DNA of 24,611 bases, taken from positions 1 through 24,611 of the IMG/VR virus record IMGVR_UViG_3300030098_001488; one strand, written 5' to 3'. Position numbers and translations under genes: made by a program. The stretch's first letter is position 1; the number at the start of each line of letters is the position of its first letter. Below the pieces are notes generated by a model. It did not search any database and was not told the origin of the DNA. It saw only the letters and a program-made list of their open reading frames with translations. The stretch comes from a virus. Of the stretch, positions 2,920 through 6,231 are shown piece after piece.

Positions 2920-3114
2920 TTATCTATCCTCCAAATTATCTAATACTTCATTTAATGTTTGATTTATAATGTCTATTTGTTTATTTGTATTTTCAAATTT
3001 TATATTTATATACCATCGTAACAGATAATGATATATTATTAATAGAACAGCGATATAAACTAATGTAAATACATCAAACCCGTTTTCTGATAATGATTGT
3101 AGCCAAAATTTCAT
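2920..3114 (-). CDS. Small single-pass membrane protein
   Basis: A 64-residue protein with one clear membrane segment, about residues 14-37 (VFTLVYIAVLLIIYHYLL), then a polar, asparagine-rich helical tail (QIDIINQTLNEVLDNLED) with coiled-coil character. The short N-terminus suggests it sits in the inner membrane with the tail on one side. The SD AAAAGGAG lies within the end of the neighbouring membrane-protein gene upstream. Its stop directly abuts the zinc-finger protein's start. In a presumed early region it could be a superinfection-exclusion or host-takeover membrane protein, but that is only a guess. Confidence 0.65.
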   Translation of the reverse strand: MKFWLQSLSENGFDVFTLVYIAVLLIIYHYLLRWYINIKFENTNKQIDIINQTLNEVLDNLEDR

Positions 3115-3115
3115 G

Positions 3116-3265
3116 TTAGTTACTCCTTTTTGTTATGTTATCTATCCAATCTAAAATTGCATAAAATATTAATGTAAATATAAAGATTCCTATACCAGAA
3201 CATAAAAACGCTAAACTGAATATAAAAAAATCTAGTATCCATTCTGATATATCAATCATTATCAT
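3116..3265 (-). CDS. 49-residue hydrophobic membrane protein
   Basis: A short gene starting at ATG 3265, which shares one base with the stop of the upstream gene (TAATG), so its translation is probably coupled. The 49-residue product begins MIMIDISEWILDFFIFSLAF and is almost entirely hydrophobic between residues 8 and 40, enough for one long or two short membrane helices, ending in the polar DNITKRSN. GGAG in the end of the upstream gene serves as SD. The next gene downstream also encodes a small membrane protein whose SD lies inside this gene's end, so the two may act together. No family is recognised. Confidence 0.6.
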   Translation of the reverse strand: MIMIDISEWILDFFIFSLAFLCSGIGIFIFTLIFYAILDWIDNITKRSN

Positions 3266-3516
3266 TATTTTTCTCCTTTGTAATTTCTCATCCATTCAGA
3301 TAAGTATCTTATAGACATATGCTTACTACATTCAAAGTCTGCTTGAATAAAAGAAGCCGCTCCAAACATATTTGTTTTACCAGATTCTCTAAGTTCTTCA
3401 AGATACAAAAATACTTCATTTTTATTTTGATTAAACTCTTCATCTTCTAGTAATGCTTGTGTATCTGGGTCATCATCATAAGCTAAAGATGGTATTTGAT
3501 TTTTACTTGCTATCAT
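3265..3516 (-). CDS. Conserved small acidic phage protein
   Basis: An 83-residue protein. The first 35 residues are acidic and probably disordered (DDDPDTQALLEDEEF). The rest, ELRESGKTNMFGAASFIQADFECSKHMSIRYLSEWMRNY, is helical and resembles a pattern I recall from many phage orphans: a helix, then TNMFGA, then a helix ending in WM. Its function is not known to me. GGAG is placed about 8 bases before ATG 3516. The gene begins inside the end of the zinc-ribbon gene (14-base overlap) and ends at the start of the 49-residue membrane protein. Confidence 0.7.
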   Translation of the reverse strand: MIASKNQIPSLAYDDDPDTQALLEDEEFNQNKNEVFLYLEELRESGKTNMFGAASFIQADFECSKHMSIRYLSEWMRNYKGEK

Positions 3517-3679
3517 ATTTATCTCCGTTTATTATTAGCATTCCATGTTTATCTCCAAACAATTTCATACATGTTTTGCAGTTTTTAGTTATTTTTTTTG
3601 TTATTTTTGTTTGACCAGAAACTCTTATTCCTTTTTCATCAGTTTTTTGATAACAATAAAAACATTCATATACTTTCAT
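3503..3679 (-). CDS. Small zinc-ribbon-like protein
   Basis: A 58-residue protein (MKVYECFYCYQKTDEKG at its start) with two CxxC pairs, CFYC near residues 6-9 and CKTC near residues 34-37, a spacing that fits a one-zinc ribbon or knuckle. A longer frame opens at 3739, but the ATG at 3679 has AAAGGAG 6-12 bases before it and the extra N-terminus shows no conserved look, so the shorter form is chosen. The SD lies a few bases after the right arm of the 13-bp inverted repeat described at 3694-3787, so leader folding could affect its translation. Similar small phage zinc proteins often bind nucleic acid or host polymerase. That is not shown here. Confidence 0.65.
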   Translation of the reverse strand: MKVYECFYCYQKTDEKGIRVSGQTKITKKITKNCKTCMKLFGDKHGMLIINGDKYDSK

Positions 3680-3693
3680 ACTTTCTCCTTTAA

Positions 3694-3787
3694 AATTATT
3701 GGGGTGAGTGCATATCTGCAAGCCAACCGAATTAAACAATATTTATCTATCATTCTTTTCAATTAATATTTTTACACCCCAATAATT
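3694..3787. repeat. 13-bp perfect inverted repeat framing a 68-base leader
   Basis: AATTATTGGGGTG (3694-3706) and CACCCCAATAATT (3775-3787) are exact reverse complements, 68 bases apart. The right copy begins seven bases after the stop of the ParB-like gene (minus strand), and the left copy ends just before the SD of the zinc-ribbon gene. In the minus transcript the pair could close a stem that brings the SD next to a structured loop, or the two copies could be paired protein-binding sites. Within the interval a 25-codon frame (3753-3676, minus) ends in an ATGA overlap with the zinc-ribbon start. It lacks a good SD, so I do not list it as a gene. Confidence 0.6.
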
Positions 3788-3793
3788 ATTATT

Positions 3794-4600
3794 TTACCAA
3801 AGTTTTATTGGTGTTCTATTATTGTAATTATACACATCTTCAATCATCCTAAGATAATCGTTTATTCTTGTACAATGTACAAATCGAGTAGGTATTTGTT
3901 CAATTTTCCTTATTAATACTTCATGTTTAAAATCTGGATGAGTTAATAAGTCAATATAAACAGCTAAAAATGTTCTATGTCTATACACTTTATCATTGTA
4001 TTGTCTAAACTCTTGTATTTTTCCAAGAACATCATGAACAAATTCAAGTGATTGAGTTACTTTAAACTGACCTCTTCTAAATTCATCACACATTGTTTTA
4101 TCATTTCGACCAGCCAATACTCCTATTAAAGTAGAAATAGGATATTTGTATTGTTTCTTAAAACCTGCCAATACTTTGTATTCATGCATACCTCTATTAC
4201 AATAATGATGTAATGAATCATTTAAGTTCCATTTATCTTGTACAGAATTAACTAATCCTATATCATCAAGAGTCATGTTAGAGAATCTATAATAAATAGG
4301 TATTTTCATATCCATACAAGTAATAAATCTGTGTTGTCCTTCTACAATAATTAATTTATTATTGTCATTTAACACTACTTTTATTTCATTTTCATGGGTA
4401 AGGTCGTTCCTTTCTATTTCTACTCTAAGATTAGCAATTTTATTAGGTCGAATAGTTCTATTGCTTTCTACTAATAAGAATCTATTGTAATCTTCTTCAT
4501 CTGTACCTGTTTTGAATATAGGAACCATAGTAATTTCATCTGAGCCAACAGCTTGTTGTTGATTTGCATTTAGTTTTATTTCTTTTGAAGGTGATTTCAT
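3794..4600 (-). CDS. ParB/sulfiredoxin-fold (DGQHR-like) phage protein
   Basis: A 268-residue protein. Around residues 40-115 it has the layout of a ParB-like N-terminal domain: NRTIRPNKIANLRVEIERN, a strand pair, and then LIIVEGQHRFITCMDM, matching the D/EGQHR or GxxR nucleotide-binding motif of ParB, sulfiredoxin and DGQHR-domain proteins. Beyond it the protein is helical and rich in Arg, His and Tyr, with no second recognised domain. Such proteins may hydrolyse nucleotides or DNA, or bind DNA; which applies is unclear. A longer form could start at 4639, overlapping the upstream gene, but ATG 4600 has AAAGGA 8-9 bases upstream and is preferred. It follows an HTH gene in the same operon. Confidence 0.7.
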   Translation of the reverse strand: MKSPSKEIKLNANQQQAVGSDEITMVPIFKTGTDEEDYNRFLLVESNRTIRPNKIANLRVEIERNDLTHENEIKVVLNDNNKLIIVEGQHRFITCMDMKIPIYYRFSNMTLDDIGLVNSVQDKWNLNDSLHHYCNRGMHEYKVLAGFKKQYKYPISTLIGVLAGRNDKTMCDEFRRGQFKVTQSLEFVHDVLGKIQEFRQYNDKVYRHRTFLAVYIDLLTHPDFKHEVLIRKIEQIPTRFVHCTRINDYLRMIEDVYNYNNRTPIKLW

Positions 4601-4620
4601 TTTATTGTCCTTTATGTTAT

Positions 4621-5097
4621 TTATTTTATAGAATACCAATATTTATAGCCACAATCATCATCCCAAACACTTTGCTCTTCAAACTTTAGCTTACTATGTT
4701 GTTTTACATAATATTGGTCATTTGAGTTTATTGGTTTCCAATACCCTATTTTAAAATATCTATTCCCATTTAAATCATTACCAAACTTCACACTATTATA
4801 CTTCTTCATCTTTAATAACAGTTTAGCTTTTTCTTCTTCTTGTTTTGAAATAGAGCTTTTAATCTTATTATCATTATAAACTCCATCCTGTTCTTTTTCC
4901 AGTTTATATCTAGCATAATTAGTGCCGTATTTATTAGTAAACATTTTTGTTTTAATATGATAACCTTCGTTTCGTAATATTTTTATTATAGATGCTAACC
5001 TCATACCCCATCCTCGTTCATATGATTCAACAGCTGTTAGTGAATTGCCTTCTTTAAGATATTCTAATACTTTTTCTTTTTGTGATTTTCTTTTCAT
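4621..5097 (-). CDS. HTH_39-like winged-helix protein
   Basis: A 158-residue protein. Residues 3-70 fit the small phage helix-turn-helix domain known as HTH_39: QKEKVLEYLKEGNSLTAVES, then RLASIIKILRNEGYHIKTK, then a wing ending GTNYARYKL. This domain usually binds DNA. The second half is lysine-rich and helical (KQEEEKAKLLLKMKK), followed by an aromatic tail with many Tyr and Trp (NRYFKIGYWKP, YKYWYSIK). Placed early in the minus arm, it could regulate this arm or assist replication. Only a weak AAGG precedes the start, and the upstream gene ends three bases before it, so translation may depend on coupling. Confidence 0.65.
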   Translation of the reverse strand: MKRKSQKEKVLEYLKEGNSLTAVESYERGWGMRLASIIKILRNEGYHIKTKMFTNKYGTNYARYKLEKEQDGVYNDNKIKSSISKQEEEKAKLLLKMKKYNSVKFGNDLNGNRYFKIGYWKPINSNDQYYVKQHSKLKFEEQSVWDDDCGYKYWYSIK

Positions 5098-5100
5098 TGC

Positions 5101-5295
5101 TTATTGCCTTTTTTTTGATTGGTTTATTATTATTTTATCTATTTCCCAAGACTTATTTATTTCCTTATCTGTTGTTTTTCTCTTTTGAAAAGATTGCTTT
5201 CTTGTCATGTAAGTCAATGGAACATCCGCCAATGATGGTGGTCTTCCCCATTCGTCAACTAATATCTTTTGACCTAACCATTCTTTATTTGTCAT
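5101..5295 (-). CDS. Small basic protein, unknown function
   Basis: A 64-residue protein beginning MTNKEWLGQKILVDEWGRPP. The first 30 residues are compact with two Trp and a GRPPSLADVPLTYM loop. The rest is lysine-rich and probably helical (KQSFQKRKTTDKEINKSWE). A clear AAAGGAG sits about 6 bases before ATG 5295, which supports this strand over the overlapping hydrophobic frame on the opposite strand. It lies between the HTH protein and another unknown small protein. The basic tail would allow nucleic-acid binding, but nothing specific can be said. Confidence 0.65.
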   Translation of the reverse strand: MTNKEWLGQKILVDEWGRPPSLADVPLTYMTRKQSFQKRKTTDKEINKSWEIDKIIINQSKKRQ

Positions 5296-5323
5296 TTTTA
5301 CTCCTTTAACGTTTCTTGCAAAT

Positions 5324-5578
5324 TTAATACTCTGGTTCTGGTTCTATGTCTAAATCTTCCATCGTTTCATAAATAGAGCCAGTACGTACTTTTTCCATAC
5401 TATCAATCATGTTTAATGTCCATTTTAAACCATTTATATACCCTCGGCTATAATCTCTTGCTTGGGTATTATCTTTTGCATAAGGTTCTTTGAAATATTT
5501 TGGATAATTTTCTAAATATTCAATTAATTCATTAAATATTTCATCTTTATGACGAACAGATATTGTTGATTTTGCCAT
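5324..5578 (-). CDS. Small helical protein, unknown function
   Basis: An 84-residue protein starting MAKSTISVRHKDEIFNELIE. It is mostly helical, with EIFNELIEYLENYPKYF, then RDYSRGYINGLKWTLNMIDS, and an acidic C-terminal tail (TMEDLDIEPEPEY). The RGYINGLKW stretch resembles short phage proteins with a conserved G-x-x-x-G helix, but I cannot assign a family. TAAGGAG lies about 7-12 bases before the start. It is the first gene after the 314-base structured region at 5579-5892, so that region would form its leader if transcribed in the same direction. Confidence 0.7.
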   Translation of the reverse strand: MAKSTISVRHKDEIFNELIEYLENYPKYFKEPYAKDNTQARDYSRGYINGLKWTLNMIDSMEKVRTGSIYETMEDLDIEPEPEY

Positions 5579-5892
5579 TTAATACTCCTTAAATATGTTT
5601 TTAATGTTTTAAGCACAAGCTAAACGGTTTTGTGTTTGATTATCTAATTTGAATAAAATTCCAAATACATTATGTCTAGCTTGCACTTAATGATAGGGCA
5701 CTGCTTTTATAGACGATGCGGAGGTCTACTTTACCACATTGTAGTTGTGAGTGGAAGGGAACAGTGCCCATAAATTCTAGAGCCGCATTTTTGTTACAAG
5801 GTAGCGGCACGACTGACACTATATACTTAGCTGAACTCGTACACTAGACGACGTTACTAAGAAATATGTATTAACTATGTCACCTTGTCTCG
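5579..5892. ncRNA. Gene-free structured stretch, candidate ncRNA or leader RNA
   Basis: A 314-base interval between two minus-strand genes with no well-supported gene. From about 5695 to 5850 it is visibly richer in G+C than its surroundings. Complementary pairs seen: CAAGCTA 5616-5622 with TAGCTTG 5677-5683; GGGCACTG 5696-5703 with CAGTGCCC 5762-5769 (74 bases in all); ATGCGG 5716-5721 with CCGCAT 5783-5788; GCCGC 5782-5786 with GCGGC 5804-5808; and ACAAGGT 5796-5802 with ACCTTGT 5882-5888. The third and fourth compete for the same bases, and the fifth would pair a hairpin loop with distant sequence, as in a pseudoknot. The 74-base element is not a tRNA: no T-loop motif and no anticodon stem. 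Strand is undecided; flanking genes favour minus. A 43-codon frame at 5716-5847 plus has no SD. Confidence 0.4.
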
Positions 5893-6030
5893 CTATGAGC
5901 CTGGCCTGCGATGTTTTGGCATAATCTTAATGCGACCATGAGGTATTTCCACAACTGTAACCCGACCTTCCATATATATTTTGCCAATAAGGTCTGGCAC
6001 ACTTTCTTTTAATTCTTTAATTGTTATCAT
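5893..6030 (-). CDS. 45-residue protein, unknown function
   Basis: A short gene from ATG 6030, which has AGGAG 5-9 bases upstream. The product begins MITIKELKESVPDLIGKIYM and ends with a basic tail (HGRIKIMPKHRRPGS). It reads as one helix followed by a strand pair, with no motif. The frame stays open upstream to 6099, where it would add a hydrophobic segment (MILSSIFALTWALTVDFITI), but that extension has no SD and carries the promoter-like elements, so I prefer the shorter start. It stops in TAG at the edge of the structured region, which would be its 3' untranslated sequence. Confidence 0.55.
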   Translation of the reverse strand: MITIKELKESVPDLIGKIYMEGRVTVVEIPHGRIKIMPKHRRPGS

Positions 6031-6200: not shown

Positions 6201-6231
6201 GTAATAGCCCTAAATAAATAGGGCTGATTAC
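6201..6231 (-). terminator. Hairpin terminator after the first minus-arm gene
   Basis: AGCCCTA (6206-6212) pairs with TAGGGCT (6219-6225) over a 6-base loop, and GTAAT/ATTAC extends the stem past a one-base bulge. It begins two bases after the stop of the gene at 6233-6565 (minus strand). Only a short mixed tract, not a clean U-run, follows, so termination may be partial. Confidence 0.5.

Follow-up and report, generated by a model that had tools for sequence, protein, structure and literature searches.

The interval 5579-5892 of this phage DNA lies between two genes, and the question it raises is what such a stretch may encode. The window, that is, the whole stretch of DNA analysed (24,611 bases), is an IMG/VR virus record, an uncultured phage contig with terminase, portal and ParB-like genes. 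Genes lie on the minus strand to the left of about 6.6 kb and on the plus strand to the right, and the interval is flanked by two minus-strand genes, one of 45 aa ending at 5893 and one of 84 aa starting at 5578. The original prediction described a gene-free, structured stretch and took it for a possible new phage RNA: a regulatory leader, a trans-acting RNA or an RNA-based switch between early genes. The observation itself was confirmed, and the interpretation found partial support. Within the interval several separable RNA structures cluster together, all in the sense orientation of the leftward early operon, and the central one (5696-5769) represents a new RNA family. The modules and flanking genes are as follows.

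5324..5578, minus strand: 84-aa gene, downstream in the operon (ORF; homologues)
5610..5690, minus strand: module E, a 16-bp hairpin pairing 5674-5689 with 5610-5625 and including the 7-bp pair (z -5.3; 6 distinct stems in relatives)
5696..5769, minus strand: module A, a three-way-junction RNA of 74 nt (CM match of 85.8 bits; MFE structure identical to the centroid, z -4.1; 45 distinct homologues)
5696..5705, minus strand: 3′ strand of helix P1 of A (same basis as the 5′ strand)
5709..5729, minus strand: hairpin H2 of A, stem 5724-5729/5709-5714, loop L2 CUCCGCAUC at 5715-5723 (16 distinct stems)
5734..5754, minus strand: hairpin H1 of A, stem 5751-5754/5734-5737, loop L1 UCACAACUACAAU at 5738-5750 (18 distinct stems)
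5760..5769, minus strand: 5′ strand of P1 of A, pairing with 5696-5705 (fully paired in 39/39 elements tested, mean 11 bp)
5782..5808, minus strand: hairpin of module C, GCCGC/GCGGC with loop UACCUUGUAACAAAAAU (stem variants in relatives)
5815..5881, minus strand: module B, a hairpin-like segment of about 62 nt within the C pseudoknot's linker (BLAST matches to L045, L049, L050, L052 and L053, at another position)
5882..5888, minus strand: 5′ strand of module C, ACAAGGU, pairing with the loop segment ACCUUGU at 5796-5802 to give an H-type pseudoknot (covarying forms)
5893..6030, minus strand: 45-aa gene, upstream in the operon, with ATG at 6030 after AATAGGAGT and a basic C-terminus (ORF; conserved as cluster c0)

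All pairings originally named in the interval are present in the sequence, among them an 8-bp pair closing a 74-base element (GGGCACTG, 5696-5703, with CAGTGCCC, 5762-5769), a 7-bp pair (CAAGCTA, 5616-5622, with TAGCTTG, 5677-5683) and a link between ACAAGGT (5796-5802) and ACCTTGT (5882-5888). The reported rise in G+C is likewise real, at 0.455 over 5695-5850 versus 0.329 for the window. By count, perfect pairs are not above chance: one 8-bp pair was observed where shuffles of the interval gave a mean of 0.69, and four 7-bp pairs where they gave 2.6. The entire 211-nt stretch folds no better than its shuffles (z -0.3 on the plus strand, -1.2 on the minus strand), and single modules, A and E, stand out on the minus strand. 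Single-sequence pairing was no better than chance; the case for a structured RNA was decided by comparison with homologues.

Relatives were obtained by way of two neighbouring proteins; from the metagenome identifiers, we take these contigs to be marine. BLAST showed the interval to be a mosaic in which E (5610-5688), A (5689-5778), C (5779-5816) and B (5817-5878) are each conserved and, in relatives, are split by insertions, missing or reordered. Instead of the one RNA originally proposed there are at least three separable modules. The two-loop pattern of A occurred in 48 stretches among 2.9 million viral contigs; further patterns and two covariance models, R1 and R2, extended the set. With all pattern and model searches combined, about 60 IMG/VR contigs have the fold, in 45 distinct sequences. 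The family divides into class Ia, to which the window and its relatives belong, class Ib, and a type seen only in L004; it spans two or three phage lineages. Class Ib phages carry two genes taken here to be resolvase-like and to encode a DUF1376-like replication protein, respectively. Pattern matches in L138, L139 and L147 were discarded as having no fold. Bacterial and archaeal genomes (257 Gb) yielded 4 pattern matches only, unstructured and none with P1, and among isolated and sequenced phages none matched class Ia, class Ib or class II at the DNA level, their proteins being only distantly related. The last of these groups (L094, L099, L103, L115 and L131) has both L1 and L2 in another architecture, with L2 on the stretch that joins two hairpins, and follows a cro-like gene. 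It is possibly a real second class and could be a chance match, about one chance family being expected when the 4 chance genome matches are scaled to the viral set, whose size was guessed.

No match was found to Rfam 15 at gathering thresholds in the window or in 12 related loci, relaxed E-values giving chance-level matches only, and no description of the module A RNA was found in the open-access literature. The claim of a structured RNA absent from Rfam is supported. So is that of an interval with no supported gene, homologous elements ranging from 67 to 86 nt and keeping no frame.

Read 5′ to 3′, module A is GGGCACUGUU CCCUU CCAC UCACAACUACAAU GUGG UAAA GUAGAC CUCCGCAUC GUCUAU AAA AGCAGUGCCC. 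P1, of 10 bp in the window, encloses two hairpins with near-invariant loops. Over 39 sequences the L1 core ACAACUACA is near-invariant, the loop reading YCACAACUACAAU across the family, and CUCCG of L2 together with the following A is invariant in 39/39. The stems are replaced freely: the 39 elements have 22 distinct P1 stems, all fully paired, beside 18 for H1 and 16 for H2. When each homologue was folded alone (MFE), the same three helices were nearly always recovered, in minus-strand sense.

In class Ia (n=18), 180/180 P1 cells pair and double changes occur at 3 of the 10 pairs; 0/500 shuffles reached the doubly changed cell count or the covariation score, and slid controls paired at 34-54%. 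In class Ib (n=13), 128 of the 130 P1 cells are paired (shuffles: mean 121.5, maximum 127), with position 6 taking five pair types (GC, GU, UG, AU and UA). Re-joining stems between sequences as chimeras brought the H2 score down from 5.67 to 4.00. That of H1 fell only from 5.92 to 5.03, making H1 the least supported helix.

The strand could be assigned from the wobble pairs, which are G.U only when read on the minus strand. Contiguous P1 averages 11.0 bp in message sense versus 7.6 on the other strand, being longer in 35 of the 39 elements and shorter in 0, and the pairs of module E in relatives, read in minus-strand sense, number 73 Watson-Crick, 17 G.U and 0 A.C. On both counts the RNA lies on the window's minus strand, on which both flanking genes and the early operon are also read; a plus-strand RNA, the strand of the first search pattern, was rejected by the same asymmetry. 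With compensatory changes in every helix, H1 being the weakest, and a strand assigned, the compared sequences mark module A as an RNA family new to the catalogues. The asymmetry bears also on a reading of the locus at the level of DNA, as an origin, a protein site or a MITE-like mobile hairpin. The single copy in the replication and early region would suit such an element, as would modules that are shuffled and nested (in L053, A contains F, described below; in the window, the C linker contains B). The wobbles fall on the message strand without exception, 35:0 in A and 17:0 in E, stems covary while loops do not diverge, and multiple copies are lacking, so that this reading seems barely credible.

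Beside A, module C has varying stems (GCCGC/GCGGC, GCCAC/GUGGC and GCCUGC/GCAGGC) and a pseudoknot that changes on both sides, as ACAAGGU/ACCUUGU, UAAGGU/GCCUUA, UUAGGGU/ACCUUAA and CUUGAGGU/ACCUUAAG. The ACAAGGT link thus turned out to be a covarying pseudoknot, and changes that are compensatory or preserve a wobble maintain both the 8-bp and the 7-bp pair; covariation across homologues was seen in three of the four pairings, pseudoknot included. The pair of competing helices fared otherwise. Both are in the sequence (GCCGC, 5782-5786, with GCGGC, 5804-5808; ATGCGG, 5716-5721, with CCGCAT, 5783-5788), but the rival helix is not conserved. As the basis of a switch it fails on two counts: the loop CUCCGCA is invariant even in phages without a C module, and GCAGGC in L010 breaks the rival helix while C's own stem stays paired. 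C is found away from A in L004, L043 and L024; therefore A and C are independent. Its fold is like that of the preQ1-I riboswitch type, an H-type pseudoknot with two stems and an A-rich loop; C likewise has two covarying stems and an A-rich loop, but has no Rfam match and is not tied to a queuosine gene. Module B folds weakly (z -0.7) while its sequence is kept, and is less certain than the other modules; in the five relatives with BLAST matches it follows A when read in message sense.

In nearly every locus A stands between co-directional genes, on their strand. It often begins 5-9 nt past a stop codon and often ends 19-41 nt short of the next start codon, its flanks are 83% A+T, and contigs as long as 56 kb have just one copy. 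The genes beside it include ParB-like and PDDEXK-like genes and genes of 84, 64, 50 and 37 aa. The 45-aa protein (5893-6030, minus strand), which has a conserved basic tail, HGRIKIMPKHRRP, is found beside A in many relatives and looks like a nucleic-acid-binding protein. Further upstream, directly after a 110-aa gene, a hairpin AGCCCUA-UUUAUU-UAGGGCU (6203-6230, minus strand) occurs without a clear U-run behind it, possibly a second control point of the early operon. The window has 0 tRNA or tmRNA genes by ARAGORN, and no promoter or terminator belonging to the element itself was found near it. A was not among terminator matches, and its AU-rich 3′ flank is without a constant U-run.

A ligand- or protein-controlled, riboswitch-like leader of the downstream gene is suggested by about a dozen loci in which a start codon with RBS follows 19-41 nt after the end of A. 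Elsewhere 100-370 nt and other modules intervene, and the first downstream gene differs between most groups of phages; the lack of a constant neighbour, be it a gene or a pathway, argues against a riboswitch or a leader of one gene. Neither does L2 co-vary with the downstream Shine-Dalgarno sequence: masking of the latter by L2 was rejected, as the loop is invariant where the sequence is AGGAU or CGGAA, just as it fails to track the AGGAG, AGGGAG and GGGGG variants. With no Rfam match either, this part of the original prediction is very unlikely to hold.

Often occupying nearly all of the space between a stop codon and the following RBS, with AU-rich flanks, A could also be an mRNA processing or stability element, i.e., an RNase III or RNase E site or a decay barrier between cistrons. 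The RNase III hairpins of the T7 early region are structured RNAs of this kind between co-directional early genes. Module E, a plain 16-bp hairpin, resembles them. A differs in its branched fold and near-invariant loops; loops so constant over wholly replaced stems would go unexplained. A general processing site, and likewise a mobile repeat, would hardly be single-copy and consistently oriented. We consider this account unlikely for A, though deserving of some weight.

Another comparison is with the putL and putR RNAs of phage HK022, two stem-loops just downstream of early promoters that bring about antitermination via the beta′ zinc-binding domain of RNA polymerase and need no dedicated phage protein (PMC9378689). 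A might similarly bind RNA polymerase as nascent RNA and suppress pausing or termination in the early operon. It is of similar size (about 70 nt), belongs to an early operon, has no gene-specific neighbour and, in class Ia, lies about 0.6-2 kb from the divergent promoter region; a conserved partner such as put has would account for invariant loops in different lineages. However, put stem-loops stand in tandem with no closed junction, whereas P1 encloses both hairpins in nearly all 39 elements. A three-way junction between genes, A would lie well beyond the 0-270 nt past an early promoter expected of put: measured from the divergent region, about 0.8 kb away in the window, 2.5 kb in L004 and over 4 kb in class Ib. 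Nor was an intrinsic terminator found downstream on the minus strand (3000-5700). We therefore regard a put-type role as distinctly unlikely.

Fixed loops on freely replaced stems imply a specific partner that reads the loops of A. Its single copy, its constant co-orientation with the operon and the lack of a fixed neighbour gene point to action in trans or on the operon as a whole. The best overall explanation, to which we would give about an even chance, is that A is an early-message RNA module whose loops are bound by a conserved partner and which acts in trans or operon-wide. The RNA would be made within the early polycistronic message, and its free-to-vary stems would present L1 and L2 to a conserved partner in trans, be it protein or RNA, from host or phage. 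In the version that we prefer, with modest confidence, A would act in trans after release by cleavage in the AU-rich flanks; of the roles originally proposed, that of a trans-acting RNA is still a possibility. Alternatively, A might act on the whole operon, not on one gene. In class Ib (L151, L154, L156, L158, L159, L175 and L176) the UAG stop codon of an upstream zinc-ribbon-like gene falls within A: in nearly every sequence it occupies nt 16-18, part of the 5′ strand of H1. A terminating ribosome would there cover the element, which rather suggests a cis role coupled to translation and counts against the trans view.

Candidate partners were sought as well. A kissing interaction between the loops was rejected, since L1 has no G and L2 only one and the two offer no pairing on the message strand. 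The pRNA of phi29 is a three-way-junction phage RNA with two functional loops that are mutually complementary. A shares the three-way junction, but its loops, nearly without G, cannot pair; the phages studied here carry ordinary TerS/TerL genes. The 45-aa basic protein was rejected as the partner, since several groups that carry A lack it in the loci fetched. In the window, complementarity to L1 or L2 singled out no target. Complementarity of modules A, B, C, E, F, G and H to 16S and 23S rRNA is at chance, and rRNA targeting was rejected on this ground; the loop of C is similar to the antisense sequence of the 3′ region of 16S rRNA.

Further modules came to light in the relatives. Module F (67 nt; L053:6087-6153, L118:10502-10567) has an 11-bp closing stem with wobbles in message sense only; it is nested in A between the two hairpins in L053 and stands between C and A in L006. 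Module G (L123:8977-9053, also L061, L102 and L109) is a structured segment closed by UGGCUCAAC/GUUGGGCCA (UGGCCCAAC in L109); in several phages it immediately precedes A when read in message sense. Module H (L032:5423-5532, also L113, L061, L123 and L057) is a candidate for a multibranched RNA of 110 nt, closed by a stem of 13-14 bp (UUUGAGUG.../...CACUCAAA), with several compensatory-looking changes and no Rfam match; its GCGC segments could form a pseudoknot. Tentatively, such loci might be "RNA islands" of uncultured marine phages, in which unrelated RNAs (A, C, E, H, F and others) would be exchanged, permuted and nested like tRNA or anti-defence cassettes, each released as a trans-acting RNA directed against a conserved host component.

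A structured intercistronic RNA is as such of a known kind; what is new is the RNA family itself, which matches none known. Phage genomes are usually annotated as proteins and tRNAs, and here, in a group of uncultured marine phages, a gene-free gap holds several structured RNAs under selection. Loops nearly unchanged over wholly replaced stems imply that a specific partner exists, for which module A could be used as bait.
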